DNA of 64,000 nt from contig NZ_JADKSO010000001.1 in assembly GCF_015351245.1 (NCBI RefSeq), positions 868,001 to 932,000 on the forward strand, in the 5' to 3' direction. Position numbers and translations under genes: made by a program. Positions 36,519 to 52,374 of the stretch are shown here, piece by piece; the first letter of the stretch is position 1, and each line of letters starts with the position of its first letter. The notes beneath the pieces were generated by a model. It was not told where the DNA came from. It made no database searches and saw only the letters and a program-made list of their open reading frames with translations. This DNA comes from Rathayibacter sp. VKM Ac-2879 (GTDB lineage Bacteria; Actinomycetota; Actinomycetes; Actinomycetales; Microbacteriaceae).

Positions 36519-37241
36519 ATGCCGCTGACCACCCCGACGTTCACCGAGGGTCGGGTCGCCCTCCGCCCCATCCGGGTGCGCGACGCCCGAGCGCTCGAGC
36601 GTGAGCTGATCGTCAATCGGGCCTGGCTCCGGCAGTGGGAGGCCTCAGACCCGCGAGGCGGCGCCGCCTTCGACGTGCGTGCGAGCATCCGGGCCTTGCA
36701 GCAGAACGCTCGAGCGGGCGGAGGCGTCCCCTTCCTCGTGGACTGGGACGGTGAACTCGCGGGGCAGCTCAATGTGTCCAACATCGGCTACGGCTCGATC
36801 TCGTCTGCCTCCATCGGCTACTGGGTGTCCGAACGGTTCGCTGGTCTCGGCATCACCCCCGTCGCGGTCGCCCTCGCGAGCGATCACGCCTTCTTCGACC
36901 TCGGCCTGCACCGCATCGAGATCTGCATCCGCCCCGAGAACCGGCCGAGTCTGAGAGTCGTCGAGAAGCTCGGCTTCCGCTACGAAGGTCTGCGGCGGCG
37001 GTACATCCACATCAATGGCGACTGGCGCGACCACTTCTGTTTCGCGCTCGTGAGCGAGGAGGTGCCGCGCGGAGTCCTCCGCCGCTACCTCGACGGCCAG
37101 GTGCCGCACGACATCGGCGTACCGAGCGATGCCGATCTCCGCGCCTCCCGCCGCTCCGGCCTGTCCGGTCCGCCGGACGGCGCCGGCCTCCCCTCGATCG
37201 GTCGACTGATCCGGGATCCGCGCGGACACACCTCCCCGTAA
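36519..37241 (+). CDS. GNAT-family N-acetyltransferase (RimJ/RimL-like)
   Basis: A 240-residue acetyltransferase. The core (about residues 10-185) shows VALRPIRVRDARALERELI, the central strand with ISSASIGYWVSERFAGLGITPVAV (acetyl-CoA loop Q/R-x2-G-x-G/A-like, here RFAGLG), HRIEICIRPENRPSLRVVEKLGF, and a final CFALVSEE. RimJ-type enzymes acetylate protein N-termini, often ribosomal; the target here is unknown. The last 40 residues are extra and low-complexity. It lies 62 bp after galU but with its own leaderless promoter. Confidence 0.9.
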   Translation: MPLTTPTFTEGRVALRPIRVRDARALERELIVNRAWLRQWEASDPRGGAAFDVRASIRALQQNARAGGGVPFLVDWDGELAGQLNVSNIGYGSISSASIGYWVSERFAGLGITPVAVALASDHAFFDLGLHRIEICIRPENRPSLRVVEKLGFRYEGLRRRYIHINGDWRDHFCFALVSEEVPRGVLRRYLDGQVPHDIGVPSDADLRASRRSGLSGPPDGAGLPSIGRLIRDPRGHTSP

Positions 37242-38335: not shown

Positions 38336-38411
38336 GGGTCCGTGGCGCAGTTGGTAGCGCGCTTCGTTCGCAATGAAGAGGTCAGGGGTTCGAATCCCCT
38401 CGGATCCACCA
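38336..38411 (+). tRNA. tRNA-Ala (anticodon CGC)
   Basis: A full cloverleaf can be folded. The acceptor stem is GGGTCCG with CGGATCC, including the G3-U70 pair that identifies alanine tRNAs. The D stem is GCGC/GCGC, the anticodon stem CTTCG/TGAAG with loop TTCGCAA (anticodon CGC), and the T arm AGGGG-TTCGAAT-CCCCT. The CCA end (38409-38411) is encoded. It marks the left edge of a region with lower GC and mobile-element remains. Confidence 0.95.
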
Positions 38412-38469
38412 AAGTGTTATTATTCAAACTCTTGGCAAGAGTCAAGGCCGCTTCGTTCAAAGCTTGAGT

Positions 38470-38494
38470 CCCCGTCGTTAGACGGGGTCTTTTT
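38470..38494 (+). terminator. Rho-independent terminator of the tRNA
   Basis: CCCCGTC - GTTA - GACGGGG followed by TCTTTTT, a classical hairpin with a T tract, unusual in its T-richness for this genome. Confidence 0.85.
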
Positions 38495-38543
38495 GCGTGT
38501 GCGGTGCGGGCTCGCTGCTGGAGCATCCAGGCTCGGGTGGCGG

Positions 38544-39671
38544 TGGGGACTGCTGAGGGTTTCGTTGACTCGTTCTCTGTGCCGCGAGTGCGGTGGTATC
38601 GATCGTCTCGAACTTGATCGGGGTGAGTGTGCTGAGGGCGCGTTGTCGGCGTTGTCGCCGCACGCGCCGACTCTGCCCATCGATCCTTTCACGCCGGCTG
38701 CAGTGATTTCAGCGACGTGTTTCCGTGAACGGAATGGGGATCCACGGTCCGAATGTATGACCGTTCCGACCGGGTCTCGGTGACTGACAGCGCTGCGCAA
38801 TGCCTGGACCGCGAGGGACGCTTTCATCCTCGAGTCGATCGACTATCCGACGATCCGGTTCGAGTACACGTCCTTGATCGCGCAGAGATACAACGTGCCC
38901 TCCCAGTGTTGTGCTCGGTGATATCGGTCAGCCAGACCCGGTTCGGACCGGATGCGGCGAACACGCGACGGACCCGGTCCTCGTGCACGGGCGGCCCGGC
39001 CTTACGGGCCAGGCCGCGCTTCTTCGCGAACACCGACCAGATCCGCTGCTGCGAACACACCCGCAAAACGCGCCGCTCCGACGCGGTGAATCCGGCCGCT
39101 CTGAGCTCCTCAGCGAGGAACCGGTACCCGAACGTCGGATCGTCACGGTGGCCATCGAACGCGGCGTCGATGAGGTGGGCGTCGTCCCAGACACGGTCCG
39201 AGAACGACTGCTTCTTCCCGGCAGAGAACGCCTGTCTCGTGACACCCAGAACCCGGCAGGGCACCGCGACGAGGACACCGTCTGCGGCAAGCTCAAGGAC
39301 CAGCGGGAACCCCATTTTGGGCCGACCTCGCGGGAAGCGAAGTACGCCAGAGCCCGCCACATCACCTCCGCTTCCTGCCCCAGAAGCCGCTTACGGCGCT
39401 TCAGGTCCCGCATCTCGGCGGATTCGGCCGAGGCAACGCCGGACTTCACGCCGTCCTCGGCATCGGCCCTCTTCATCCAGTTGGTGATCGAGTTCTCCAA
39501 GATCCCGAAGTCCTTCGCGATCTGCGCCAGCGGCGTCCCGCCCTTCCGCGCGACGGCGACGACATCCCGGCGAAACCCTTCCGGATATGGCTTCGGCATG
39601 ACTGCCATCCTCCCAACGGCCACCAACGGCCACCACACCTCAGGAGACAACCGAACCCTCAGCAGCCCCAA
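38544..39671 (-). mobile_element. Decayed IS3-family insertion sequence
   Basis: About 1.13 kb bounded by imperfect inverted ends. The left end (38544 onward) reads TGGGGACTGCTGAGGGTTTC. The right end, read on the minus strand from 39670, reads TGGGGCTGCTGAGGGTTCGG; both continue with GTTG-N-CTC. It encloses a two-frame IS3-type transposase on the minus strand that is broken, so the element is not autonomous. No flanking direct repeat was identified by eye. Confidence 0.75.
38560..39599 (-). pseudogene. IS3-family transposase (orfA/orfB), inactivated
   Basis: orfA begins at 39599 with PKPYPEGFRRDVVAVARKG, a helix-turn-helix with DFGILENSITNWMKRAD. orfB follows in another frame with SDRVWDDAHLIDAAFDGH, QQRIWSVFAKKRGL and WLTDITEH, the first catalytic Asp. 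After that the frame is shifted, a TAG interrupts NRIVG-SID, and the next piece keeps VIHSDRGS (second Asp). The sequence around MESFF with the catalytic Glu is deleted; the C-terminal LTPIKFETI reappears in another frame. At least two frameshifts, a nonsense codon and a deletion are visible. Confidence 0.85.
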
Positions 39672-39707
39672 TTCTACGCCGGAGTGCGCATGGCGCAGAC
39701 TGGGGGA

Positions 39708-39914
39708 GTGGCGAAGAAAGCGACCCTTGTCGACGGCCTGCTGGCACCAGACGGCTCGACGGTGCGGTTCTCAATCGACGACGACATCTACGAGATTGAC
39801 CTGTCTCCGAAGAACAGCCAGGAGCTCCGGACGGCCTTCCGTCCCTACGTCGATGCCTCTCGGCGTGCGCGCCGCCGAATCATTGACCTGCCTATCGTCG
39901 GGCTGAAGAAGTAG
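39708..39914 (+). CDS. Lsr2-like protein, N-terminal dimerisation domain only
   Basis: A 68-residue protein matching the N-terminal half of the nucleoid protein Lsr2: it starts VAKKATLVDGL and continues VRFSIDDDIYEIDLSPKNSQELR. The C-terminal DNA-binding domain with its RGR AT-hook-like motif is absent; instead the protein ends in ARRRIIDLPIVGLKK. It could still heterodimerise with full Lsr2 and act as a dominant modulator, or it may be a truncated remnant. The GTG at 39708 aligns with the usual Lsr2 start; in-frame starts at 39684 and 39690 are possible. It lies 36 bp from the IS3-type right end. Confidence 0.65.
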   Translation: MAKKATLVDGLLAPDGSTVRFSIDDDIYEIDLSPKNSQELRTAFRPYVDASRRARRRIIDLPIVGLKK

Positions 39915-40559
39915 AGCCTGACCGCTGTAGTGATCAGTTGCGCCTAAGTGCAGCAGGTCCTGCAAGACTTGAAATATTCTCGGAGTGGCCTCTAGTAGTA
40001 CTTGGTAAGGTCTGTTAATTCGTTCGGGTTTCTGTTGACTTCGCCGTGTGCAGGCGGATGAGGTCGATGAGGTGCGGAAGCTGTTGGACGCGTTCGTGGA
40101 GGACGTGTGCCGCCTCGAGCGCTCAGGCATCCGTCAGGCTCTCGCTGGAGTTGTGGTCGAGATCGGCCGGAGCTGACCCACGGTTTCCCAGCAGTGAGTC
40201 CGAGAAGGAGCTCGTCGACGATGCACCAGGGTGTCCGCCGCTCGCAACGTACTGACGAAGTTTTTCGCGGTCAAGTTCCATCGACTATGTGTCAGCGGAG
40301 TGCATCCGCCTTACGAGCTAGATTCGCGGCCTCTCTGCGGGACGAGAGTTGCTCGCAGGACTGTAGTTGAGACGACATGTCTCTACGTTCTCGCCCTCAT
40401 TAAGGTGGCAGTAGGCCTGTGCGGAGACCATCGCCTGACGGCCACCTCGGCCGAGAAAGGCCTGGTCGGTCAGTAGAAAGGTGGGGGGTCATGCACGGGC
40501 GGTTTCAGCAGACGATCAAGGTTCTTGCATGTTCGTGCAACAGCACGGAAACATTCAGC
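39915..40559. other. Intergenic region of the accessory island
   Basis: About 650 bp of reduced GC. A short frame (GTG 40048 to 40176, 42 codons, ADEVDEVRKLLDAFVEDVCRL) reads protein-like but lacks support. A small dyad TTGCATGTTCGTGCAA lies near 40525, upstream of the bacteriocin promoter, and could be a regulator site. Nothing else is recognisable. Confidence 0.4.
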
Positions 40560-40588
40560 TTAGGTGTCGACTGTAGAGGTGTTACTAT
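40560..40588 (+). promoter_or_regulatory. Candidate promoter of the bacteriocin gene
   Basis: TTAGGT (40560-40565) and TACTAT (40583-40588) are separated by 17 bp, about 58 bp upstream of the bacteriocin start codon. Confidence 0.4.
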
Positions 40589-40646
40589 CCCCACAGCGAT
40601 AACGCTAATGGGGGCACCGCTTGGTGCTACGGAGAAATGGGGAAAG

Positions 40647-40976
40647 ATGATCCGAAGCAAGGTTGCAAAAATCGCCGCTGGCATCCTGGTCGCAGGCGGC
40701 CTCGTCATGGTCGGTGCTACTGCCGCCTCCGCCACGACTGTCTATCCGTCTGAGGGCGGGGTCTGGAACCACGGTGTTCGATCTGGCGGCATCTACGGTA
40801 GCGGCGGACAGGTCTACTCCGAGTACCAGCACAGCGGTAAGACCCACAAGTCCACCGCCTGTGGATATCAGGGATGTGCTTACAGCGGGTGGAAGCCGTC
40901 TTCCACCCTCGCCGTTGCTCACTGGTCCCCGATGAAGGCGACGGGGAACACCGCCTACTACGACGTACTCTCCTAG
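40647..40976 (+). CDS. Lactococcin 972-family bacteriocin precursor
   Basis: A 109-residue precursor. A Sec signal peptide (residues 1-31: basic SKVAK then AAGILVAGGLVMVGATAASA) precedes a mature peptide of about 78 residues. The mature start SEGGVWNHGV, the YSEYQHSGKTHKSTA block and the aromatic/Gly-rich composition match lactococcin 972 (mature EGTWQHGYG... and YHHGSKTHSA). Two cysteines (ACGYQGCAY) could form a small disulfide loop. Family knowledge: lactococcin 972 binds lipid II and blocks septum formation. GGGGAAAG precedes ATG 40647. A hairpin and four putative export/immunity genes follow. Confidence 0.85.
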   Translation: MIRSKVAKIAAGILVAGGLVMVGATAASATTVYPSEGGVWNHGVRSGGIYGSGGQVYSEYQHSGKTHKSTACGYQGCAYSGWKPSSTLAVAHWSPMKATGNTAYYDVLS

Positions 40977-40984
40977 GTGGTAGT

Positions 40985-41013
40985 GTGCCGGCGGGCCGAG
41001 CGTCCGCCGGCAC
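40985..41013 (+). terminator. Hairpin after the bacteriocin gene
   Basis: A perfect 10-bp stem (40985-40994 with 41004-41013) and 9-nt loop without a T tract. It may act as a partial terminator, giving more bacteriocin than downstream transporter message. Confidence 0.6.
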
Positions 41014-41085
41014 GCGGTAGGATGACTGAAAACTTTCCAGCTAACGCCTCACAACGGGCTTAGCCTAATCTCCGGGCGGTTAGAC

Positions 41086-41694
41086 ATGTTGACAAAAAAG
41101 TGGTCATTGTTGGGATGCGCAATCTTGCTCTCAGGTCTCACCGCGTGTTCAAGTCCATCTCCTTCCCCAAGTGGAGCCGCGCTAGCCCCGTCAGACGTCA
41201 AATTCACCGGACCCTGGGCTGCTGAGTTCTCGGCCAGCTACGAACGCGCATCGGATGACTTCTCGCGGAACGCAATCGTTGATGGAGCAATCTCCGAGCA
41301 AGAGTATTCAGAAATGATCGATCGCTTCAAGGGTTGCGTGTCCGGTTTGGGGTATAAAATCGACGAATACAAGCTGGACGGTTCGTTCAACCTCAATTTC
41401 CCGCCTGACACAGATGCAGACATTGCCAATGAAGACGTGAAGTCTTGTTCCCGTGATTCGGGTGAGGCGGAGATCGGCTCGCTATATAGTTGGACGCACC
41501 GTAATCCGGACAGGATGGACGAAGACACCCTCATCGTCGATTGTCTCGTCGAGGCAGGAGTTGTTCCGTCATCCTACTCGATCAGCGACTACACGAGCGA
41601 CACTACTCGCGACGACTTTCCTTTCGTCGACGAAGACAAAGGTCGTGACACCCTCGAAGAGTGCCGGGTCGATCCGCTTGGCGTCCAGTCTTGA
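41086..41694 (+). CDS. Lipoprotein of the lactococcin-972-type cluster
   Basis: A 202-residue lipoprotein. The signal peptide ends in the lipobox LTAC (Cys at about residue 21), followed by a Ser/Pro linker. The mature domain is acidic, has several cysteines (KGCVSG, KSCSRD, VDCLVE, EECRVD) and no recognised family. An anchored protein encoded directly after the bacteriocin and before the transporter genes is a candidate immunity protein shielding lipid II or the peptide's target; this is inferred from position. GC is clearly lower than in the flanking core genes. Confidence 0.75.
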   Translation: MLTKKWSLLGCAILLSGLTACSSPSPSPSGAALAPSDVKFTGPWAAEFSASYERASDDFSRNAIVDGAISEQEYSEMIDRFKGCVSGLGYKIDEYKLDGSFNLNFPPDTDADIANEDVKSCSRDSGEAEIGSLYSWTHRNPDRMDEDTLIVDCLVEAGVVPSSYSISDYTSDTTRDDFPFVDEDKGRDTLEECRVDPLGVQS

Positions 41695-41751
41695 AGGTGC
41701 TCGGCATAGCGGCTGACCGTGAAGTCAGGCTGTCGCAGACTGGAAATCGGC

Positions 41752-42837
41752 ATGAGGGCTAAAGGGTTCGGACTCACTGTGCTGGCAGGCATCTCTATCG
41801 CGGGCTCAGCATTCGTCGCAGGCCTTGCCCTTTCCGCGTCACCTGTCATCCCGCAGTCCGCTGCTTTTGATTCGTCGGCGCAGGCGAATTTCGAATTGAC
41901 GTCTCAGACCCTCCTAGATGCTCGTGCTGTGAAGCTGACAGTCGCTCAGGGTGCCCAAACGGAGGTGCAGGTTCCACGGACGGGAACTGTCACGGCCATC
42001 GGATGCGTTCCGGGTATCGCCATTATGTCTTGGAGCAATTTCATCGCGGTGGATGGCGTCAAGTTGCTGAGCCTGGCAACGACCACACCTCTGTATCGTG
42101 ATCTACGCGCTGGAGACAGCGGCGACGACGTTCGGGCGCTGCAAGCTGAGCTGGTGCGCCTCGGTGAGAATGTCCGAGTGGATGGAGTTCTAGGATCAAA
42201 ATCGATCCAGGTCGTGAACAATCGAATTCGTGAAATTGGCGGCGTTCCCTCGTCGGTTGATACGATCTCGAAAGATGAAGTCGTTTGGCTGCCGATGGAA
42301 ACGGGAACGGCGGCATCGTGCCCTATTGCGCTCGGAGCGTCAGTCGCGACCGGGGATGTCGTCGCCGCGCTGGAAACACAAGCGACAGGCGCCAACGTGA
42401 GTGCGCTCCCAAGCGATCTAGTTCCCGGACCTCGAGTCGCTGTAGTGGGTGATCTCCGTCTCGCGGTCGACGAATCCGGACGAATTGTGTCCTCGGAAGA
42501 GATTGCCACCCTGCGAGCAAGCCCGACGTTCGCGCAGGCATCTCAAGGTTCCGATGTGTCCGGCGCGGCCGGAAGCGCGCAGCCTGAGGCTTCGGGCGGC
42601 GGGGTGGTCATTGACGCAAGTCTCGAGCTCGCTTCGCCTCTCGAAACGTGGGCGGTCCCTCCAGGCGCTGTCTTCGCTTTGAACAATGCGCGTGGTTGTG
42701 TCAGCTCAAACGGAGAAAGTCTCGTCGTAGATGTCGTAGGATCCGAGCTTGGCAAGACATATGTTCTGTTTCCGAATTCTGAGGTGCCACAAAGTGTGGA
42801 TGTCTTAGCCGACCCTCCGAGTACGTGTCAGGCCTAG
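41752..42837 (+). CDS. Membrane-anchored peptidoglycan-binding-domain protein of the bacteriocin cluster
   Basis: A 361-residue protein with an N-terminal membrane anchor (VLAGISIAGSAFVAGLALSASP). It contains a PG_binding_1-like domain (about residues 118-155: YRDLRAGDSGDDVRALQAELVRLG...VDGVLGSKSI) embedded between beta segments that resemble membrane-fusion (HlyD-like) adaptors. This architecture is known from actinobacterial ABC systems of the MacB type, where the adaptor links the transporter to the wall. ATG 41752 is chosen as the start of the signal anchor; a GTG at 41719 is possible. The 3' end overlaps an alternative start of the ATPase gene. Confidence 0.75.
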   Translation: MRAKGFGLTVLAGISIAGSAFVAGLALSASPVIPQSAAFDSSAQANFELTSQTLLDARAVKLTVAQGAQTEVQVPRTGTVTAIGCVPGIAIMSWSNFIAVDGVKLLSLATTTPLYRDLRAGDSGDDVRALQAELVRLGENVRVDGVLGSKSIQVVNNRIREIGGVPSSVDTISKDEVVWLPMETGTAASCPIALGASVATGDVVAALETQATGANVSALPSDLVPGPRVAVVGDLRLAVDESGRIVSSEEIATLRASPTFAQASQGSDVSGAAGSAQPEASGGGVVIDASLELASPLETWAVPPGAVFALNNARGCVSSNGESLVVDVVGSELGKTYVLFPNSEVPQSVDVLADPPSTCQA

Positions 42838-42866
42838 AATTGAGCGACACCTCGAGGGATCCGAAT

Positions 42867-43466
42867 ATGAAGTCCGTCGAGCTGCTCGAGGTACAACATT
42901 CTTTTAACGGCAAAGGATTCTTGTTCGCTCCTATGTCTCACATCTTCCTGCCCTCGCGGAGCTACGCCCTCATGGGACCATCGGGCTCCGGAAAGTCCAC
43001 GCTCCTGGGCATCGTAGCCGGTTCTGTGGATCCGACGTCAGGGTCAATCGTGAAGACTGGTATCACAAGTACTGGCTGGGTGTTTCAAAATCCTCACGGA
43101 TCCGCGAGAAGAACAGCCGTTGACCACGTTGTATTGCCTTTGCTCGCAAAAGGCGAGAAACGTAAGGCCGCCGAGGAACAAGCCATGTCCTTGCTTGAAA
43201 CGTTTGGATTGCGGGACAGAAAAGGCGCGCCGTTCGCTCAGCTTTCTGGTGGCGAGGCTCAGCGTCTGATGCTAGCAAGAGCAGTTGCATTCTCGCCAGA
43301 TCTGCTCCTAGTTGACGAGCCGACTGCACAGCTCGACACCAAGACAGCGGAAGTGGTCATCGAGGCACTAGCGCAGGTCTCCAGCGGTGGAAGCATTGTG
43401 GTCGTTGCAACACATGACCCGCGTGCGGCCTCGGCCTGCAGCACGACCATCGAGCTGGTGGTCTGA
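42867..43466 (+). CDS. ABC transporter ATP-binding protein of the bacteriocin cluster
   Basis: A 199-residue ABC ATPase with all motifs: Walker A GPSGSGKST (about residues 36-44), Q-loop VFQNPHG, signature LSGGEAQR, Walker B LLLVDEP, and the switch His in ATHDPRA. By length and motif style it belongs to the MacB/LolD-type group that works with FtsX-like permeases. ATG 42867 has GAGGGAT upstream; a GTG at 42825 overlapping the preceding gene is the alternative. It should energise export of, or immunity to, the lactococcin-like peptide together with the permease 1 bp downstream. Confidence 0.9.
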   Translation: MKSVELLEVQHSFNGKGFLFAPMSHIFLPSRSYALMGPSGSGKSTLLGIVAGSVDPTSGSIVKTGITSTGWVFQNPHGSARRTAVDHVVLPLLAKGEKRKAAEEQAMSLLETFGLRDRKGAPFAQLSGGEAQRLMLARAVAFSPDLLLVDEPTAQLDTKTAEVVIEALAQVSSGGSIVVVATHDPRAASACSTTIELVV

Positions 43467-43467
43467 A

Positions 43468-44532
43468 TTGCGGCTTTCGGTTGTGCTTTCCGAGGCCTTG
43501 AGAAACGTTTCCACTCGTACGAGCAAGCCTCTCTTCGCATTTGTCTGCTTCGTTGTGGTGGTTGGCTCATTGTGTGTTTATGACGCCGTCACCGTTACGT
43601 CCGTTCTTGGGAAGTTCCGGGAATTTCAGGCGGCTGGGGCAACAATCTCGACCGTGAGTTCTGCAAATAGCGTAATTGGAACCGCTTGTGAACGTCTTGC
43701 AAGAGTGTCGGGCGCTCGCGCAGCGGGAGCGTTGTCGGAGGGCGAAGGCGTTGTCTTCGAAGCCCTTCCATCTTCTGCGGTGCCATCGAAAAGAGTGACT
43801 CCTAAGTTCATCGAACTTCTCGACAATCAGCACGATCCCGGAGTTGCCGGCCTGTATTTCTCTCAAGACGTAGCCACCGCGTTGAGCGTCGGGGTCGGGG
43901 ATGTCGTTCCGACTAAGAGCGGTCCTGTTTCGGTTGCGGGAATTTTCAACTACCCTGACGACGGACGACTTCCCGGGCTCGGCTGGTCGGTTCTAGTGCC
44001 GGCACCGGCGAATGAAATGTTTGACTCTTGTTGGCTCGATGTCCCGTTTGTTCAGTCGCAAGCCGCATCATTTATCCTCACGGCGGTCGCCCCGGGCAAC
44101 GTCGAGAAGCCGACCGTGAGTCAGCTGAACAGCCGATTGGGTGAGAATTATGATGTCGCAGAAGTTGTAGATACTCGGCAATCATTAATTGCGATTCCCA
44201 GCGCGCTTATTTTTGCGATTTCTCTGGGCTATGCCTTGACTCGGTCCCGTCGCCTCGAACTGTCATCGGCGTTGCACGTTGGTGTAAGAAGATCAGCCCT
44301 CGTGGTGCAGGCCACTGCCGAGAACTCCATTTGGCTTATAGCGGCGAACATCACGATCTTCTCCTGTGCGGCGTTTGTCGTGATACTCGAATCTCCGATT
44401 GATCGAGGTGCGATCTTGCTCGGAGTTGGGCGAATTGTTATTTTGGCGTCTATGGCATTGTTGCTCGGTTCTTGTCTAGGTGTAGCGGTTACTCGGGAAC
44501 GGCATATGTTCCGTTATTTTAAGGAGCGATGA
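43468..44532 (+). CDS. ABC transporter permease (FtsX/MacB-like) of the bacteriocin cluster
   Basis: A 354-residue membrane protein with the four-helix FtsX/MacB layout. There is one N-terminal helix (PLFAFVCFVVVVGSLCVYDAV), a long extracytoplasmic domain of about 200 residues, and three C-terminal helices (IAIPSALIFAISLGYAL, AANITIFSCAAFVVIL, IVILASMALLLGSCLGVAV). The TTG at 43468 lies 1 bp after the ATPase stop and follows GGTGG; a GTG 15 bp further is another option. The classical lactococcin-972 clusters instead encode a larger multi-span integral protein, so this is a variant transporter. Confidence 0.8.
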   Translation: MRLSVVLSEALRNVSTRTSKPLFAFVCFVVVVGSLCVYDAVTVTSVLGKFREFQAAGATISTVSSANSVIGTACERLARVSGARAAGALSEGEGVVFEALPSSAVPSKRVTPKFIELLDNQHDPGVAGLYFSQDVATALSVGVGDVVPTKSGPVSVAGIFNYPDDGRLPGLGWSVLVPAPANEMFDSCWLDVPFVQSQAASFILTAVAPGNVEKPTVSQLNSRLGENYDVAEVVDTRQSLIAIPSALIFAISLGYALTRSRRLELSSALHVGVRRSALVVQATAENSIWLIAANITIFSCAAFVVILESPIDRGAILLGVGRIVILASMALLLGSCLGVAVTRERHMFRYFKER

Positions 44533-44963
44533 GGACCGATTTGTTATGGACTGGGCGTCGGCGCGCCGACGATGTTGCGCGCGTGACTCAAGCCGAAGGG
44601 GCCAGCGAAGGTGACTAGCCGACGATCCGTTCGACCGTCTCCGCCCAGCTCTTCGCCGTGTGCTTTTGACGTAGCCGGGCGCTGAGCTGTCCCGTTTCAT
44701 TCTGGTTACTCCTCGATAAAACATCGAGTACTCGATATTTCAATGCCATCAAGTAAAACTCCTCGTCGGTTATGGGTTCCGCACGCGGAACTCAACATGC
44801 ATTTCTCAACTCGCTATCCTTTGTCAGAATACGCACGGTAATCCGAGGAAATCTTGCAGTCTTATTCCTGAGGTCTGATTCGTTCGTGTCGTTCTAGGGA
44901 CATCGATTTCTCGCGCGAGAGAAGGGAAGTTCCTACACTTTCGATTCCCGGAACGAGAAGTTG
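44533..44963. other. AT-rich junction with gene debris
   Basis: About 430 bp. A minus-strand tail ending at 44615 reads LSARLRQKHTAKSWAETVERIVG before a stop, which looks like the C-terminus of a deleted gene. An exact 14-bp palindrome ATCGAGTACTCGAT lies at 44723-44736. The rest is AT-rich without coding signs. Confidence 0.4.
44723..44736. repeat. Perfect 14-bp palindrome
   Basis: ATCGAGTACTCGAT in an AT-rich junction downstream of the bacteriocin cluster. It could be a recombination or regulator site; nothing further supports either. Confidence 0.5.
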
Positions 44964-45622
44964 ATGCGCTATGGCTCTACTGCAGGTTTGAATTCTGGGC
45001 AGGTCACGGAATGGGTTGCTCGGATATTCCAGATCTTCTCATTCCGCCCGTCAATACCGGGAGCACCTGCTGCGTTGAACCTGCGGCAGCAGGTGCTCGT
45101 CGCGCTGCTGCTGTCGCGGCAGAACCTGAACCAGGCCGTCATCGCAGACTTGCCCGATATCTCGCAGCCCGCGGTCTCCCAGAGCTACCGGCAGATCGTT
45201 CGACGTGCCGACGCGGAACCGCGCCGACCGGTCGATCGAACCACTCCGGGAAGCGACACCGCCAAGGCGTGAACGTGCAAACCGCGGCCGATCCTCGCCG
45301 TATCGGAACCCGCGCAGGCGCCAGACACGACCGCGCCGCACTCACAGCTTTGCATCTGGGAGCTGATCCTCGATGACACAGACTGAATCGCCGACCCCGG
45401 CCACATCGGCACCACAGCAATCACCCCCCGCAAACGATCCCGCACCGAAACGCTCGACAACAATACGAAGAAAACGAACCGACACATCTCCATCATCCGC
45501 TCGTCATCCAACGACGCATCGCCCACGGGAAGAACTGGAAGATCCTTTCGACGGGATACCGAAGATGACTGGGCGAACTCCCCTACCTCATTCGCATCGT
45601 CACCGCACTCGCACTCTACTGA
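44964..45622 (+). pseudogene. IS5-type transposase with internal deletion
   Basis: The N-terminal part is an intact HTH segment of a DDE transposase (about 45070-45210): QQVLVALLLSRQNLNQAVIADLPDISQP, then SQSYRQIVRRAD. The C-terminus of the same family reappears at about 45515-45622 as HGKNWKILSTGYRR-stop-LGELPYLIRIVTALALY. The DDE core between is missing and a TGA interrupts the tail. Only about 300 bp of unrelated sequence joins the two ends, so this is a deletion derivative. Confidence 0.7.
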
Positions 45623-45877
45623 ACCGGCCGGTAAACAACCTTTTGAATAACGCTCCCAGAAGCTCATGCGCGAGGGGTTCGCGCCTCTCGAATTCATGGA
45701 AATCGCGAAGATCTACGTGAACGCCGAGCGCCACGCCGATATGTTCTGTCTCTACATCGACTACTGCACCAAGATGGCCGACGTGTAGCAATCGGATGGT
45801 TCCGGCGGGCATTGGCGCTCTCGTTGTTTTTCTACACTTCCCGCGATGACACTGAGACGCCATAATGGGGCACAGCT

Positions 45878-46156
45878 ATGAAAGATGACCAATTCGACAG
45901 AATCTTCAGCTATATGACCAAGCGCGTCGATGCGCTCGACAGCCGTTTTGATTCGTTCGATGAGCGCCTGGATCGATTCGATGGAAGCATTGTAGAAATT
46001 CGAGGAGAGCTCGTGCAGATCAACGGTCGTCTCGACCGCGTCGAAGCCGTGAAGGACACCCTTGAATGCCAAGCCAACGCGATCTCCAACGAGCACGAGC
46101 ATGCCCTCAGGGATCACGAGCGCCGTCTCAAGAAGCTTGAGCGACGCCCGGTGTAG
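45878..46156 (+). CDS. Small coiled-coil protein, function unknown
   Basis: A 92-residue, highly charged helical protein with a heptad pattern (FDRIFSYMTKRVDALDSRFD, then DERLDRFDGSIVEIRGELVQ and NGRLDRVEAVKDTL). Similar short coiled-coil proteins are common orphans in this bacterial family. No membrane segment and no signal peptide. GGGGCAC lies upstream of ATG 45878. It sits between transposase remains and the HAD operon with no obvious partner. Confidence 0.65.
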   Translation: MKDDQFDRIFSYMTKRVDALDSRFDSFDERLDRFDGSIVEIRGELVQINGRLDRVEAVKDTLECQANAISNEHEHALRDHERRLKKLERRPV

Positions 46157-46366
46157 CGTGGCTTCATGCTCCGGTCGCGCTCAGCGAGATCTTATCACCC
46201 TTGGCATGAGCTGCCTCGTACGCACCTCGGCTGGCGTTGGAGAGCACACCACCGTGGGTGGTCACTGGGTAGCCGTTCGCTCGGCCCCACTCTCAGATCT
46301 TGTGATCGCGGTTCTGTTGGTGGATGTGCAGGAGCACCTACCGGTTCTTTGGGTGGCCAGGAGATC

Positions 46367-46513
46367 ATGCGGGAGATGGAGGGCATCGCTCTCTGGCTCG
46401 AGGCATTCCTCGAGGAGAAGGGCTTCGCGACGACACGCGGCACCTCTTCGACGTTGTCCTTCTTGCGGGAAGCCGTCGACTCCGACGAGTCGCTCGGGGA
46501 GCGCTATGCCTGA
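46367..46513 (+). CDS. Small 48-residue protein coupled to the HAD phosphatase
   Basis: A short acidic, mostly helical protein (REMEGIALWLEAFLEEKGFA at the start). AGGAG lies 4-8 nt before ATG 46367, and the stop overlaps the start of the HAD gene by 8 nt. The strong ribosome binding site and the overlap support a real gene, possibly a small partner or a coupling leader. No family recognised. Confidence 0.5.
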   Translation: MREMEGIALWLEAFLEEKGFATTRGTSSTLSFLREAVDSDESLGERYA

Positions 46514-47297
46514 CCGCGAGACGCTCGTGCTCTGCGACCTGGACGGCACGCTCTACCAGCGGGAGGAACTCGTCCCGGGCGCCGATCGGGCGGTGGCTTC
46601 GTTGAGATCCCTCGCCACCCTCCGCTTCATGACCAATACGGATTCGACGCCCACCGACACCATCGCCCGGCGTCTGGAGGGACTGGGCCTCGGGCCTATG
46701 GACGTCGCCGACGTCTTCACCCCGGTCGCGGCCGCATCGCGACGACTCGCGGGTCTCGGGCGGGCTGTGCTCATGGTCAACCAGGGTGTCGCGAGTGAAT
46801 TGGGCGCAGTGGTCCACCCGGTCTCTTCACGGGGAGAACCGGCGGACGCCGTAGTCGTCGGCGATGTCGCGGGGTTGCTTGACTACGAACTGCTCGACCG
46901 CGCGTTCGACGCGATCCGTCGCGGCGCTCAGCTGCTCGCTCTGCAGCGAGGCCGCTACTTCCGTGCAGCGGACGGAGACCACATCGACACGGGAGCGGTC
47001 GTGGCGGCGCTCGAGTACGCGACGGGTGCGACGGCCCAGGTCCTCGGCAAGCCGAGCGTCGATTTCGTCGAGCTCGCGATCGCCTCGGCCGGAGGGCGGG
47101 ATCGATTCCGGCGCATTGTCGTCGTGGGTGACGACCGTTCGAGCGACATCAGGATGGCGGTGGACGCCGCCCTCGAATCCGTCCAAGTGCGCACCGGCAA
47201 AGCGAGCGATCAGGTGGGGGATCCCAGCCTGCCGGTCGCCGATCACGTGATTGACAGCATCTCCGATCTCGTCCAGCTGGTCGGCGGCCGACCGTGA
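46506..47297 (+). CDS. HAD-IIA family phosphatase
   Basis: A 263-residue HAD-superfamily hydrolase of subfamily IIA (NagD/phosphoglycolate-phosphatase-like). Motif I is LCDLDGTLYQ (nucleophile Asp about residue 10). Motif II is FMTNTDSTP (where family members usually have TNN). A capping insert follows, then GKPSVDFVELAI with the motif III Lys, and IVVVGDDRSSDIRMAVDAAL as motif IV. It probably acts on a small phosphorylated metabolite. The stop overlaps the next gene's ATG (ATGA), so phosphatase and phosphodiesterase are co-translated. Confidence 0.88.
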   Translation: MPDRETLVLCDLDGTLYQREELVPGADRAVASLRSLATLRFMTNTDSTPTDTIARRLEGLGLGPMDVADVFTPVAAASRRLAGLGRAVLMVNQGVASELGAVVHPVSSRGEPADAVVVGDVAGLLDYELLDRAFDAIRRGAQLLALQRGRYFRAADGDHIDTGAVVAALEYATGATAQVLGKPSVDFVELAIASAGGRDRFRRIVVVGDDRSSDIRMAVDAALESVQVRTGKASDQVGDPSLPVADHVIDSISDLVQLVGGRP

Positions 47298-48238
47298 AAG
47301 TCCTCTGGCATATCTGGGACGGGGCGGCAGCCTGGATCGTCGACGCTCTCATCGAGAGATGGACCCTTCCCGTGGTCGCCGGTCTCCGTGCTGACGGGCA
47401 GTGGGGGAGCGCCGAGGCTCCGCGCCCAAATTGTCAGACGCCGACAGGATTGGCGACGCTCCTGACGGGTACGCCTCCCGCTGTGCATGGGATCGCGGGC
47501 TTCTGGGTGCCCGGGCCCGACGCATCGACGCGGAAGACGCCGATCCGTGGTTTCACCGAAGGGCTCCGGCGCGCGGAGACCCTCTGGGAGCGAGACGGCT
47601 TCGACTCGACGATGATCTCGGCCCATGTGCCGTGGGTCATCGCGGCCGACGGCTCCGTGCCACGTTCGACGGTCGTCGCGTCCGATGCGTTGAACGCGCG
47701 GATCGCGTACGAGGGATTCGTCGCTCTCCCGGATCGGGGCGACGCCGAGCTCCCTTTCGCCGACGAAGGCAGCCCGGATGCCGTCGTGACGTGCCGATCC
47801 GACGGGACAATCCACCTCGCCGAAGGAGGACGGACAGTGCTGCTGGGCGACCGATGGCATCCCGTCTGGGCCGCCAATGGCAATGGCCGGTGGTATCGCA
47901 CCGCACGCAACGAGAGCGGCGCGCTCGTGGTGGTCCGCTCGGCGATGTGGCAGACACGGGTGGAAGGCTCCCCGGAGGTCGTCGAGCGGGCGCGAAGAAT
48001 GGAACGCGAGATCGGCCCGTTCCTCGGCGACGGGATGGGATCGCTCTATCGCTCGGGGATCTTCGGCCGACGCCTGATCGATGGCGGCTCAGGAGACGCG
48101 GAACGCATCCTGCTCGAGGCTGCCGAGATCGTCGTCCGGACCATGTGGGGGCCGTTGGATGTGCGCGGACGTTCGGTTGGTGTTCTATCGCGAACGGCCG
48201 TTCCGCAACCGGAGCTGCGTACAGTCGCTGCATGGTGA
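47294..48238 (+). pseudogene. Type I phosphodiesterase/nucleotide pyrophosphatase, C-terminally truncated
   Basis: The first about 290 residues match the alkaline-phosphatase-superfamily phosphodiesterases (PF01663): metal-binding Asp in HIWDGAAAW, nucleophile region NCQTPTGLATLLTG, AVHGIAGFWVPG, and a DSTMISAHVPWV strand. The metal-binding Asp/His residues expected in the C-terminal third are absent. After about 48160 the frame reads unrelated sequence to the stop at 48238. The gene therefore seems cut by a rearrangement. A 67-bp piece of it occurs again at 49042-49108. It overlaps the HAD gene by 4 nt. Confidence 0.7.
47542..47608 (+). repeat. Copy 1 of a 67-bp direct repeat
   Basis: This segment of the phosphodiesterase gene recurs at 49042-49108 with two mismatches, exactly 1500 bp further on. 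Confidence 0.9.
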
Positions 48239-48350
48239 CTGCCGGCCACAACTCGAGTCAGGGTGGGACGCTATCTGCGTTCTATTCGGCGCTACGAGTG
48301 TTGGACAACGACAAGTATGCTGTGACTACGACACAGTAGAACGGAGCATC

Positions 48351-48827
48351 ATGCGCGTCTATTCGGACTTTCACGCAATTGCCGTTGCCGACGAGTATCG
48401 CTGGGACTACTTGGGTACGCGAGAGTGGAAGAATAGGATTTCTGCTAGGACCCCGGACGGGGGTTTGGAAATCTACACCGGTGTGCACGACGGTTACGTC
48501 GAGGTCACAGCAATCCGGGCGGAAACGGCGCCAGCAATTGACCTGGACTCTTGGGAAGTTGTCGGAGAGATGAGTATTTTCTCCGAGGATGGCTCCCTGG
48601 AGGTGCGTTCCCGTGAAGGCGATCCGTTTGAGCAGGAGAGTCTGGCTCAAGGTCCAGGTTGGTACCGGATTCGTGTGTCTGCGCGGGGAAGAGACCGCCA
48701 TTTCGACCAGGCCGTGCTGGAGTCCGGCGAAGAGTACGAGATCGTCGCTTGGTCCGAGACCGAGTTTCGGATGGAGACGAATTTGAAAGCTGCTGATCAT
48801 GTTTCGGTAGAGCTTTCGCTCTGGTGA
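48351..48827 (+). CDS. Hypothetical protein inserted between the two repeat copies
   Basis: A 158-residue acidic protein, predicted beta-rich, with no signal peptide and no recognised family. Visible stretches are MRVYSDFHAIAVADEY, GLEIYTGVHDGYVEVTAI and a closing VSVELSLW. GGAG lies at 5-8 nt before ATG 48351, and a strong terminator follows. Composition is below the genome's GC. Small beta-rich acidic orphans of this kind are often immunity or toxin-associated proteins, but nothing here proves that. Confidence 0.7.
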   Translation: MRVYSDFHAIAVADEYRWDYLGTREWKNRISARTPDGGLEIYTGVHDGYVEVTAIRAETAPAIDLDSWEVVGEMSIFSEDGSLEVRSREGDPFEQESLAQGPGWYRIRVSARGRDRHFDQAVLESGEEYEIVAWSETEFRMETNLKAADHVSVELSLW

Positions 48828-48834
48828 TCCGGCT

Positions 48835-48883
48835 CTTGCACGGAGGCGCGGCGGTGGTTCTTACCGCGGCGCCTCCGTGCAAG
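48835..48883 (+). terminator. Strong hairpin after the hypothetical gene
   Basis: A perfect 15-bp inverted repeat (48835-48849 with 48869-48883), extended inward by a weaker stem, 7 nt after the stop codon. Confidence 0.75.
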
Positions 48884-49350
48884 GCAGCGCGTCGTTTTGC
48901 GCCAGCAGGATGAGTTTGAGCTTCGGCTCTTGCATTTCATACGGCGGCGCGGTTGCTCCTGTTGTAGCTCCGCAATATAGACCTAGTCCCCGCCCTCTCT
49001 CAGCGAGGAACTCTGCCACGGAGTACCTCTGTCCGTAGCCGGATCCGCGGTTTCACCGAAGGGCGCCGGCGCGCGGAGACCCTCTGGGAGCGAGACGGCT
49101 TCGACTCGCTATCGGAGTGACCAGGTTCGAGGTCAGCATCGCGTGCCGCGAAGCCCGCTTCCGCGGAGGCGAACTCCGCCGATCCGCAGGGCTGCGCTCA
49201 CCAGCCCGAAGTCGCAGCGACCGGCGCGCGCTTCGTGCGCTCGTGCGCAGTGGCATGCAAGATTCGTGCGTCGAGTGACGATTCCCGCCGCAAAGGCGAC
49301 GTTTTGCTCGCGCGAAACGCAAAGGAAATGCTGCCGTAACAGATGCTTTC
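48884..49350. other. Rearranged non-coding stretch
   Basis: About 470 bp without a supportable gene. It contains the second copy of the phosphodiesterase fragment (49042-49108), which is not preceded or followed by further homology. The remaining sequence gives open frames with no family signal. Confidence 0.5.
49042..49108 (+). repeat. Copy 2 of the 67-bp direct repeat
   Basis: Matches 47542-47608 (inside the phosphodiesterase gene) with two differences. It begins GATCCGCGGTTTCACC and ends GCTTCGACTCG. Confidence 0.9.
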
Positions 49351-49362
49351 TAACTTTGCGCT

Positions 49363-50766
49363 GTGAATCGTCTCTCAAAGCTCTTGATGGCCAGCGCCAC
49401 CGGCGCAGCCCTTGTCCTCGCGGGCGTAGCCCCCGCCTCCGCCGCCACCGGATCGCCAGGAGGCGCAGACGGTGGCGATCCCTACTTCCCCGGTTACGGC
49501 AATACCGGCTACGACGCAGCGGGCTACAGCCTGGCGATCCGCTACGACCCGGCATCGAAGGTGCTCAAAGGGACGGCCAAGATCGTCATCGCCGCGCAGA
49601 AGGATCTGTCGCAGTTCAACCTCGACCTCGCCGACTCCCTGGCCGTCACCGCGGTGAAGGTGGCGGGAGCAGCGGCCACCTTCACGCACAGCGGGGGTGA
49701 GCTCGTCATCAAGCCGAAGCGAGTCGTCTCGAACACGTCCCAGGTCATCGTGCAGGTCGAGTACGGCGGCACGATGGGATGGCAGACCGATCAGACGGGC
49801 GCGCCGATCGGCTGGCTGGCGACCGACAGGGGAGCCATCGTCGCGAGCGAAGCGCAGGGCGCACCGACCTGGTTCCCCGTGAACGACCTCGTGACCGACA
49901 AGGCCGTCTACTCCTTCACCATCACGGTGCCTCAGGGCAAGACCGCGGTGGCGAACGGGCAGTTGCAGTCGAAGCCGCGCACCAGCAACGGGTGGACCAC
50001 TTTCCGCTACGGCATGGGCGAACCGATGTCCTCCTACCTCGCGACGGTCGACATCGGCGATTACACCGTCAAGCAGCGTACGACGTCGTCTGGCATCCCC
50101 TTGATCGAGGCGGTCGACAACAACCTGCCGCAGTGGCGTAAAGATCAGACGGCCGACTCGTTCGGCAAGGTCGACCAGATCCTGGACTACTTCGAATCGC
50201 GCTTCGGCCCGTATCCCTTCTCCTCTAGCGGAGGAATCAGCGAGAGCACGGACATCGGCTACAGCCTCGAGACCCAAAGCCGTCCTCTCTACACCGGAAC
50301 GACCGATACCCAGACGGTGGCCCACGAGCTCGCCCACCAATGGTTCGGCGACAGCGTCGGCCTGAAGCGGTGGAGCGACATCTGGCTGAACGAGGGCTTC
50401 GCGACCTATGCCGAGTGGTCCTGGGCGGCTCACACCGGCGGCGAGAGCCTCGACCAGCGCGCGGACAGCGTGATGGCACGTTCCGCGGACGACGGTTTCT
50501 GGACGCTGAACATGGTGGATCCGGGAGCAACGAGCATGTTCGACGGTCCGACGTACGAGCGGGGCGGGCTCGTCCTCGTCGAGCTCGAGAAGCGCATCGG
50601 AAGTGACGCCTTCGCCACCCTCCTGCAGCGCTGGGCAGAAGAGTACAAGTACACGAACGCCACCACCGCGCAGTTCGTCGCCCTCGCGCAGGACGTCTCC
50701 GGCACCGATTTGACCACATTCTTTCAAAACTGGCTCTTCGGTCGGCACAAGCCGACCCTGAGCTGA
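49363..50766 (+). CDS. Secreted M1-family metallopeptidase
   Basis: A 467-residue exported aminopeptidase-N-type enzyme. The signal peptide (residues 1-27, LLMASATGAALVLAGVAPASA) precedes a beta domain (YSLAIRYDPASKVLKGTAKI), the catalytic domain with HELAHQWFGD (zinc ligands, about residues 324-333) and the third ligand in WLNEGFATYAEW. The usual GAMEN-type motif is replaced by GISESTDIGYS-like sequence (about 292-301). It ends soon after the catalytic domain, the compact form common in actinobacteria. GTG 49363 follows a -10-like TAACTT at leaderless spacing. Confidence 0.9.
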   Translation: MNRLSKLLMASATGAALVLAGVAPASAATGSPGGADGGDPYFPGYGNTGYDAAGYSLAIRYDPASKVLKGTAKIVIAAQKDLSQFNLDLADSLAVTAVKVAGAAATFTHSGGELVIKPKRVVSNTSQVIVQVEYGGTMGWQTDQTGAPIGWLATDRGAIVASEAQGAPTWFPVNDLVTDKAVYSFTITVPQGKTAVANGQLQSKPRTSNGWTTFRYGMGEPMSSYLATVDIGDYTVKQRTTSSGIPLIEAVDNNLPQWRKDQTADSFGKVDQILDYFESRFGPYPFSSSGGISESTDIGYSLETQSRPLYTGTTDTQTVAHELAHQWFGDSVGLKRWSDIWLNEGFATYAEWSWAAHTGGESLDQRADSVMARSADDGFWTLNMVDPGATSMFDGPTYERGGLVLVELEKRIGSDAFATLLQRWAEEYKYTNATTAQFVALAQDVSGTDLTTFFQNWLFGRHKPTLS

Positions 50767-50787
50767 CCTCGGACGGAGAAACCACTC

Positions 50788-51798
50788 ATGCATCCCCGAT
50801 CATTCTTCACCAGTCGCCGAGGCGCACTGGTCGGTGCCCTCCTTCTCGCCGTGACTTTCGGCGCCCCCTCGCTCGCCGCTGGCCCGATCCCGTCCACGAC
50901 GGCCAGCCCGAGCTCCTCACCGTCCGCTTCGGAGGAATGCGCGACGAATGCGGTCTCGGCCCGCTTGCGCCCGGGAAGCGGCAGCACCGTCGAGCCCACG
51001 GAGGACTTGACTCCGGCGCAGATGAAGCAGGTGGAGAAGAACTTCGCGGCGAAGCTCACGGCGAAGGGTCTCACGAAGAACTCAAACGCGCCCGGCGGCG
51101 TCATCACGATCAATACCTACGTGCATGTCCTCCAGAACGACGACGGCTCTGGCGGCATCTCTTTGGACCAGATCAAGCAACAGATGACCGTCCTCAACGC
51201 CGCCTACTCCGGAAAGGCCTCCGCTACCGACGCGAAGACCGCCTTCACCTTTCGACTGATCAACGCCGACTTCACGAACAAGAGTGCGTGGTCCAGCTTC
51301 TGGGCGTATGACGACACCGACAAAGAGCTGTCCACGGCGTTGCACAAGGGGGGTCTCCGCGACCTGAACATCTTCGTCGGTCATCTCAAGGGCGACGTGC
51401 TCGGGGTGGCGAACATGCCCTGGGATGCGGGCTGGTACGGCAAGCAGGACGGCGTCAGAGTGACGACGGACTCCATGCCCGGCGGAGCGTTCGGCGGTTA
51501 CAACCTCGGCGACTCGGTCGTCCACGAAGTTGGTCACTGGCTGGGTCTGTCGCACACGTTCGAGAACGGCTGCGGAGGTGACGGCGATGGCGTTGCGGAC
51601 ACCCCCGCGCAGGACAGCGGCGACAACATCTTCTCCTGCGACGAGAATCTCGACACGTGTCCGGCAGCAGGCCTTGACCCTGTCCATAACTTCATGAGCT
51701 ATGGAACCGACTACTGCATGGATAGATTCTCGCCCGGACAAGCGAAGCGCATCGGACTCATGTATTACCTCTACCGCAGCGGGTACGACCGAGCATGA
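50788..51798 (+). CDS. Secreted M43-family (pappalysin-like) zinc metalloprotease
   Basis: A 336-residue exported protease. A signal peptide (residues 1-31) and a pro-region precede the catalytic domain. The extended zinc motif is HEVGHWLGLSH (H-E-x2-H-x2-G-x2-H, about residues 247-257), followed by the Met-turn region NFMSYGTDYCMDRFSPGQ near 305. Cysteines CGGDGDG, CDENLDTC and YCMD form the typical disulfide set. It lies 21 nt after the M1 peptidase, so the two are likely co-expressed. A 20-bp perfect hairpin follows. Confidence 0.92.
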   Translation: MHPRSFFTSRRGALVGALLLAVTFGAPSLAAGPIPSTTASPSSSPSASEECATNAVSARLRPGSGSTVEPTEDLTPAQMKQVEKNFAAKLTAKGLTKNSNAPGGVITINTYVHVLQNDDGSGGISLDQIKQQMTVLNAAYSGKASATDAKTAFTFRLINADFTNKSAWSSFWAYDDTDKELSTALHKGGLRDLNIFVGHLKGDVLGVANMPWDAGWYGKQDGVRVTTDSMPGGAFGGYNLGDSVVHEVGHWLGLSHTFENGCGGDGDGVADTPAQDSGDNIFSCDENLDTCPAAGLDPVHNFMSYGTDYCMDRFSPGQAKRIGLMYYLYRSGYDRA

Positions 51799-51845
51799 AC
51801 GACGGATGGTCAGACGCGTCGTCGCCGCGTCTGACCATCCGTCGT
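51799..51845. terminator. Bidirectional terminator with 20-bp perfect stem
   Basis: Left arm 51799-51818 pairs perfectly with 51826-51845 around a 7-nt loop, immediately after the protease stop. It lies between convergent genes. Confidence 0.85.
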
Positions 51846-51987
51846 CCTCGGTTGCTGCGACGCGACCCACTCACGCTCGATACAGGTCCTCAGCTCTGCA
51901 CGACGTCGCCTCCAACGACGCTGATCGCGCAGGCCGGTGACCGCCCTCACGAGGCCTTGCCTCCGCCGCCCAGGGCCCGCGACACGA

Positions 51988-52374
51988 CTACTCGGCGCGC
52001 AGGCCCGCCGAGCCGAGCACGAGGTCGACATCGATGCGGATGGCCACGCGGAGCGGGTTCTCGCGCGGCACACGGTAGCGCTGCGAGTACAGCTCGACCG
52101 CGTGCGCGACGGCGTCTGGCTCCTCCTCGATCGAGGCGGGGCCGCCGAGGCTGAGCCAGCGGATGCCGTCGACCTGGCCGACGGTCGCAGTGCCTCCGCG
52201 GCGCACGTTGAGCACCTTCTGACTCTCGCGAGAGGTGATGATGCGCACCACTCCCTCCTCATAGGTGAAGCCCACGGCGACGACGTGTAGACGGCCGCGA
52301 CGACCCGGAGTGGAGAGGGTGGCCAGGTGCCGCTCGGTCACGAAGGAGAGACCGTCGGCGCTGAGGATGCTCAT
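51988..52374 (-). CDS. PPOX-class F420-dependent oxidoreductase
   Basis: A 128-residue split-barrel flavin/deazaflavin-binding protein of the TIGR03618-like F420 group. Landmarks are LSFVTERHLATLSTPGRRGRLHVVAVGF (read in parts), then VRIITSRESQKVLNVRRGG and the closing VAIRIDVDLVLGSAGL. Such enzymes use F420H2 or F420 to reduce or oxidise small molecules. ATG 52374 opens the conserved part. Its presence fits with fgd elsewhere in this window. Followed upstream by a thiolase gene on the same strand. Confidence 0.85.
   Translation of the reverse strand: MSILSADGLSFVTERHLATLSTPGRRGRLHVVAVGFTYEEGVVRIITSRESQKVLNVRRGGTATVGQVDGIRWLSLGGPASIEEEPDAVAHAVELYSQRYRVPRENPLRVAIRIDVDLVLGSAGLRAE

Follow-up and report, generated by a model that had tools for sequence, protein, structure and literature searches.

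Rathayibacter is a plant-associated type of bacterium. Rathayibacter sp. VKM Ac-2879 carries, within a 64,000-nucleotide (nt) stretch of contig NZ_JADKSO010000001.1 (the window, whose positions are used throughout), a cluster of five genes headed by a bacteriocin precursor of the lactococcin 972 family. A lipoprotein gene comes second, followed by genes for an adaptor, an ATP-binding cassette (ABC) ATPase and a permease. The lipoprotein is probably the immunity protein specific to the peptide, while clearance by the adaptor-ABC pump would be generic; a rough probability for this reading is 0.6. The cluster and the structure behind its first gene are:

40647..40976, + strand: lactococcin 972 family bacteriocin precursor, 109 amino acids (aa); PF09683 and TIGR01653 above cut-off
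40985..41013, + strand: 10-pair stem-loop after the bacteriocin gene; fold z -2.44
41086..41694, + strand: lipoprotein, proposed immunity protein, 202 aa; lipobox, five invariant Cys, helical model
41752..42837, + strand: membrane-anchored adaptor, 361 aa; membrane-fusion protein model with inserted peptidoglycan-binding domain
42867..43466, + strand: ABC transporter ATPase, 199 aa; ABC_tran 86.6 bits, E 3e-24
43468..44532, + strand: four-span FtsX/MacB-like permease, 354 aa; profile search reaches MacB (5gko) only at E 0.087

The five genes and their products

By its profile matches the peptide is a member of the lactococcin 972 family: it scores 31.1 bits against PF09683 (cut-off 22, E 3.7e-7) and 34.0 bits against TIGR01653 (cut-off 32.1, E 2.6e-8). 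Residues 1-29 form a likely signal peptide, with the cleavage site judged by eye.

The lipoprotein contains lipobox residue Cys21 and four more cysteines, all invariant in 27 relatives, and the lipobox is kept in the aligned relatives. It models as a helical protein (predicted local distance difference test score, pLDDT, 88.2). Pfam and NCBIfam searches gave no family match, PDB sequences none at E <= 1, and Foldseek none at E <= 0.001; the family is apparently undescribed.

The adaptor (model pLDDT 86.2) has the parts of MacA: a membrane anchor, a lipoyl/barrel-sandwich domain, and a beta-barrel domain. Foldseek matches it to CusB (E 1.7e-10) and to MacA (5nik, E 4.2e-6), and a profile search of the PDB to 5nm7 (E 7e-5). 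PG_binding_1 is matched below cut-off in the window protein (E 0.017) and at E <= 0.1 in 14 of 19 aligned relatives; structure model and profile place this domain inside the lipoyl domain. The adaptor thus models as a MacA/CusB-type membrane-fusion protein carrying an inserted peptidoglycan-binding domain.

Among NCBIfam models, FtsE, L_ocin_972_ABC and LolD all match the ATPase below cut-off. The permease has no Pfam or NCBIfam match of its own, and FtsX is matched in 4 of 18 aligned relatives (best E 4e-6). Hydropathy gives relatives two to four spans, on gene calls that are home-made guesses. The initial annotation had named five same-strand genes of just these kinds, down to the family of the peptide, the Cys-rich lipoprotein, the peptidoglycan-binding domain, and the FtsX/MacB likeness of the permease; these identifications hold, that of the permease as a probable one.

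Gaps between the genes are 109, 57, 29, and 1 nt, with start codons chosen by homology. Across loci, neighboring module genes frequently overlap by 4-10 nt, and the bacteriocin and lipoprotein genes lie 0-10 nt apart in 6 of the 23 loci examined. This suggests that the cluster genes are read as one transcript. Promoter and terminator scans gave results at chance level. The 10-pair stem 3' of the bacteriocin gene was equalled in 1 of 200 shuffles, and comparable stems were found in only 5 of 23 loci.

Two layouts in Microbacteriaceae

PF09683 is present in 33 of 299 sampled genomes of the family; presumably the same 299 underlie the lipoprotein, adaptor, and other-peptide profile searches below. 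It is also present in 4 of 396 genomes of a phylum sample, including G001, and in 7 of the 10 genomes from which the close loci L002-L011 come. Forty-three PF09683 places were fetched: all 41 from the family sample and two from close relatives' genomes. (The bacteriocin profile was built without L119, L135, and L158.)

These loci fall into distinct types. Eighteen of the 43 have the order bacteriocin-lipoprotein-adaptor-ATPase-permease; another (L127) is without an ATPase match and has its permease in two pieces; and four have bacteriocin and lipoprotein only (L129, L131, L137, and L158). The remaining 20 are without the lipoprotein. In 19 of them, L125 being the exception, a large open reading frame (ORF) of 645-889 aa with 7-9 predicted spans lies behind the bacteriocin gene, with an ATPase match downstream in every case. 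No such ORF was found in the 23 lipoprotein loci. The family therefore has, on gene content, two layouts that are mutually exclusive at the level of the locus; genomes G001 and G107 each carry both. Six of nine large multi-span proteins tested match TIGR01654 (bacteriocin-associated 7TM, seven-transmembrane), all below cut-off. The contrast drawn by the initial annotation with the classical large multi-span operon is borne out. Its description of the cluster as unusual is not: the cluster represents one of two family layouts.

Beyond lactococcin 972

The lipoprotein profile matches 46 of the 299 family genomes; at E <= 1e-20 it finds 47 places, including one fragment. In the phylum sample it matches 5 of 396 genomes, strongly only in G001. 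Forty of the 47 strong lipoprotein genes adjoin a small secreted peptide gene: 27 have a PF09683 match within 2 kb, and 13, in 11 loci (L204, L205, L207, L209-L213, and L215-L217), have a different peptide of 92-113 aa, encoded directly before the lipoprotein gene. These other peptides are secreted-looking and mostly contain Cys. They gave no above-cut-off match in Pfam (6 queried) or NCBIfam (10 queried, including those of L253 and L254), and are candidate new bacteriocin families. A profile made from five of them recovers those five, one more next to the module in G168, and two weak single matches (G010 and G119). A filter for such secreted peptides retained 10 of 17 loci versus 29 of 3598 random anchors, a flattering comparison since the filter was fixed post hoc; it misses L217.

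The adaptor profile finds 33 places at E <= 7.1e-67, followed by a drop to 2.8e-28 among the matches listed. The lipoprotein gene lies upstream of the adaptor gene in 29 of the 33, and in 27 of these 29 a small secreted peptide gene precedes it: 19 PF09683 members and 8 others. In three places (L219, L251, and L252) a diverged lipoprotein lies downstream instead. The last, L250, has an adaptor without a lipoprotein; the same genome has the bacteriocin-lipoprotein pair L137 elsewhere.

At L219 the adaptor-ATPase-permease genes follow a response regulator and a kinase, and two diverged lipoprotein genes lie downstream of them. In L251 and L252 the module is preceded by a six-span ABC pair and followed by a single diverged lipoprotein. 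Peptide-less as they are, these three look like a resistance-only form. Small secreted peptide genes also occur upstream of more diverged lipoprotein-adaptor-ATPase-permease modules, at L253 6321-6686 and L254 8734-9114 (minus strand).

Seven loci pair a peptide with the lipoprotein in the absence of this pump (L129, L131, L137, L158, L212, L213, and L217); tandem or extra lipoprotein genes occur in L136, L151, L153, L207, and L211; and in L003, L202, L206, and L214 the lipoprotein gene is alone, lacking both the pump and a recognized peptide.

Co-divergence was measured over 18 loci, leaving out L139 (a near copy of L140), L127 (incomplete), and the pair-only loci (no pump). Distances among adaptor, ATPase, and permease correlate tightly (r 0.76-0.81), those between lipoprotein and pump parts less so (r 0.34-0.44). 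The best correlation of the bacteriocin is with the lipoprotein (r 0.36; 4 of 5000 permutations); with the pump parts it is 0.20-0.28 (259, 71, and 45 of 5000). Partial Mantel tests gave r 0.275 for bacteriocin and lipoprotein given the pump (49 of 5000), and r 0.13 for bacteriocin and pump given the lipoprotein (711 of 5000). By these distances, divergence of the bacteriocin tracks the lipoprotein better than the pump. The lipoprotein tree, in which 14 of 44 forks are open and branches are long, clusters by peptide type: 8 changes are required, versus a shuffled mean of 17.6, with as few in none of 200 shuffles. The lactococcin-type rows alone need 6 changes.

A model for self-protection

These arrangements suggest a model in which a lactococcin-972-type bacteriocin, presumably secreted through the general secretory (Sec) pathway, is encoded together with a cassette for its producer's protection. 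The lipoprotein, on the outside of the membrane, would confer immunity specific to the peptide, probably by binding the bacteriocin or shielding its target. Adaptor, ATPase, and permease would form a MacAB-like pump whose adaptor tethers it to peptidoglycan and which removes peptide from the membrane surface. Lipid II, known as a target only for lactococcin 972 itself, may be the target here as well. Lipoprotein and pump together would take the place of the large multi-span protein and ATPase of the classical operon. A division into cognate immunity gene and generic pump is proposed because pairs exist without the pump, because the lipoprotein occurs in tandem and alone, and because the pump appears recombinable.

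Several observations weigh against this model. No peptide was found at 7 of the 47 lipoprotein places: L003 (twice), L202, L203, L206, L208 (near a contig end), and L214. Three of the four bacteriocin-lipoprotein-only pairs are in genomes with pump genes elsewhere (G173, G043, and G117), and the fourth, L158, has a truncated peptide. L212, L213, and L217 carry another ABC exporter gene downstream. Bacteriocin-lipoprotein co-divergence across the 18 loci is modest: without L123 the partial correlation given the pump weakens to r 0.21 (148 of 5000), that of bacteriocin and pump given the lipoprotein becoming 0.08 (1335 of 5000), and lipoprotein and pump given the bacteriocin are also correlated (r 0.38; 12 of 5000). 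Finally, several counted loci are near copies of each other (L139/L140, L148/L149, L155/L156, and L212/L213).

Might the cluster instead serve export or maturation? The pump would then detach the peptide from the membrane and pass it through the wall, with the lipoprotein acting as a folding or disulfide helper on the outer face. Pump and peptide genes do adjoin; the ATPase reaches 115.5 bits, short of the 254.85-bit cut-off, with the NCBIfam model 'putative bacteriocin export ABC transporter'; the peptide-lipoprotein pair of L212 and L217 precedes another ABC exporter; and Cys residues are conserved in the lipoprotein and in many of the peptides. However, the precursors have Sec-like signal peptides, where the lipoprotein gene is alone there is no peptide for it to mature, and four pairs adjoin no pump at all. 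Export is the less probable role, perhaps one chance in several. The initial annotation had left the choice open, proposing a different immunity or export machine. The different layout stands, and the balance leans to immunity, because the peptides look Sec-secreted, because the lipoprotein occurs in pump-less pairs, in tandem and alone, and because it co-diverges with the bacteriocin; export is the weaker half of that proposal, though 3 of the 7 pump-less pairs have an ABC exporter.

Somewhat less likely still is a general envelope-stress or peptide-resistance pump, one that defends against the peptides of others, senses damage, and was captured by bacteriocin genes more than once. The regulator and kinase of L219, the ABC pair of L251 and L252, the downstream position of their diverged lipoproteins, and the module of L203, where no peptide was detected, all fit such a pump; the small secreted peptide gene directly before the lipoprotein in 27 of 29 upstream-lipoprotein modules does not. 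A role of the lipoprotein in killing, as co-toxin or docking factor, rather than in protection is very improbable: peptide and lipoprotein do form the smallest recurring pair, but lone and tandem copies better fit protection, and a lipidated protein presumably stays on its producer.

The immunity model invites a broader and more tentative proposal, judged slightly less than an even bet. A cassette found across Microbacteriaceae, comprising a helical lipoprotein and a peptidoglycan-tethered MacAB-like pump, may protect producers of several unrelated Sec-secreted peptides. Relatives of lactococcin 972 would be only one of these, the other peptides would constitute new bacteriocin families, and the lipoprotein would provide specificity.

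Relation to known systems

In the lcn972-orf2-orf3 operon of pBL1, orf2-orf3 are called immunity genes and a putative transporter (PMC4055356); the functions of the B and C genes are described as unverified in any lactococcin 972 locus (PMC11796350). Lactococcin 972 binds lipid II and blocks septum formation (PMC8538875). Like this classical operon, and scbABC of the pneumococcus, the window cluster places a secreted PF09683 peptide before an ABC ATPase and a membrane protein. It differs in having a lipoprotein, an adaptor, and a separate four-span permease, and no large multi-span protein; it appears to be a variant with a non-classical protection part. None of the five window proteins matches TIGR01654 at E <= 1 (for the ATPase, among the best 25 of 198 matches), and the ATPase fails TIGR03608 (L_ocin_972_ABC) at the score given above.

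A lactococcin-972-related operon of Brevibacterium, on a tRNA-Val island, is described as encoding two membrane proteins and an ATPase (PMC5719810). By that description these could correspond in kind to the adaptor, ATPase, and permease of the window, and the operon may be related to this pump; the description, as far as available, mentions no lipoprotein.

MacAB and other membrane-fusion-protein pumps share the adaptor fold, the ABC ATPase, and a permease whose nearest profile is MacB. The window ATPase and permease are separate chains, however, and the window adaptor has a peptidoglycan-binding domain within its lipoyl domain. For a pump of the window type no outer-membrane partner is expected.

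In lantibiotic producers, self-protection has two arms, a lipoprotein and an ABC transporter (PMC8538875). The cassette, with its similar pairing, may work like LanI/LanFEG immunity. Sequence and fold searches of solved structures, which could miss a weak likeness such as one to NisI or SpaI, gave no match for the window lipoprotein; and the window pump, which has an adaptor, is MacB-like.

A variable genomic site

The surroundings of the cluster include:

38336..38411, + strand: tRNA-Ala (cgc), by ARAGORN; left border of the strain-specific stretch, where Rathayibacter alignments end
38412..51981, no strand: variable stretch of about 13.5 kb containing the cluster, by blastn versus L002-L011
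38824-39671, - strand: overlapping ORFs with by-eye likeness to IS3-type transposase remains (ORFs only)

An acetyltransferase gene before the tRNA (36519-37241) is 85-90% identical to its counterpart in eight Rathayibacter loci. From the end of tRNA-Ala to about 51982, blastn found no match longer than 150 nt at the same place in the ten close loci. In six of these loci the alignment picks up again at 51982-51994, with 1.2-5.4 kb of different sequence in between, which marks the site as variable and speaks against a clean insertion. The cluster genes have 54-62% G+C each, versus 68% for the window. Low G+C, the variable stretch next to tRNA-Ala, and the transposase remains (ORFs only) agree with the initial proposal of horizontal acquisition. 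The stretch also contains a 67-nt direct repeat of 97% identity (47542-47608 and 49042-49108, 1500 nt apart) and, at 44961-45272, a short ORF that resembles a helix-turn-helix protein and may be the beginning of a further broken transposase.

Closest to the cluster is L123 of R. iranicus (the genome of L008), with 61-78% identity per protein. It sits about 34 kb from its own genome's tRNA-Ala site, which indicates that the cluster has moved. In Rathayibacter sp. VKM Ac-2857 the corresponding tRNA-Ala site contains a lone lipoprotein gene (L003 12714-13283), with a fragment at 19923-20156. In the tree this lipoprotein groups as sister to its window and L123 counterparts (support 99/93).

Implications

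One bacterial family thus holds two alternative solutions beside lactococcin 972-type peptides. A membrane-fusion protein that includes a peptidoglycan-binding domain hints at how a pump could anchor itself in cells that have no outer membrane. With the small peptide-lipoprotein pairs, the question of self-protection can be tested using two genes, and the lipoprotein serves as bait with which to find small secreted peptides overlooked by family libraries.
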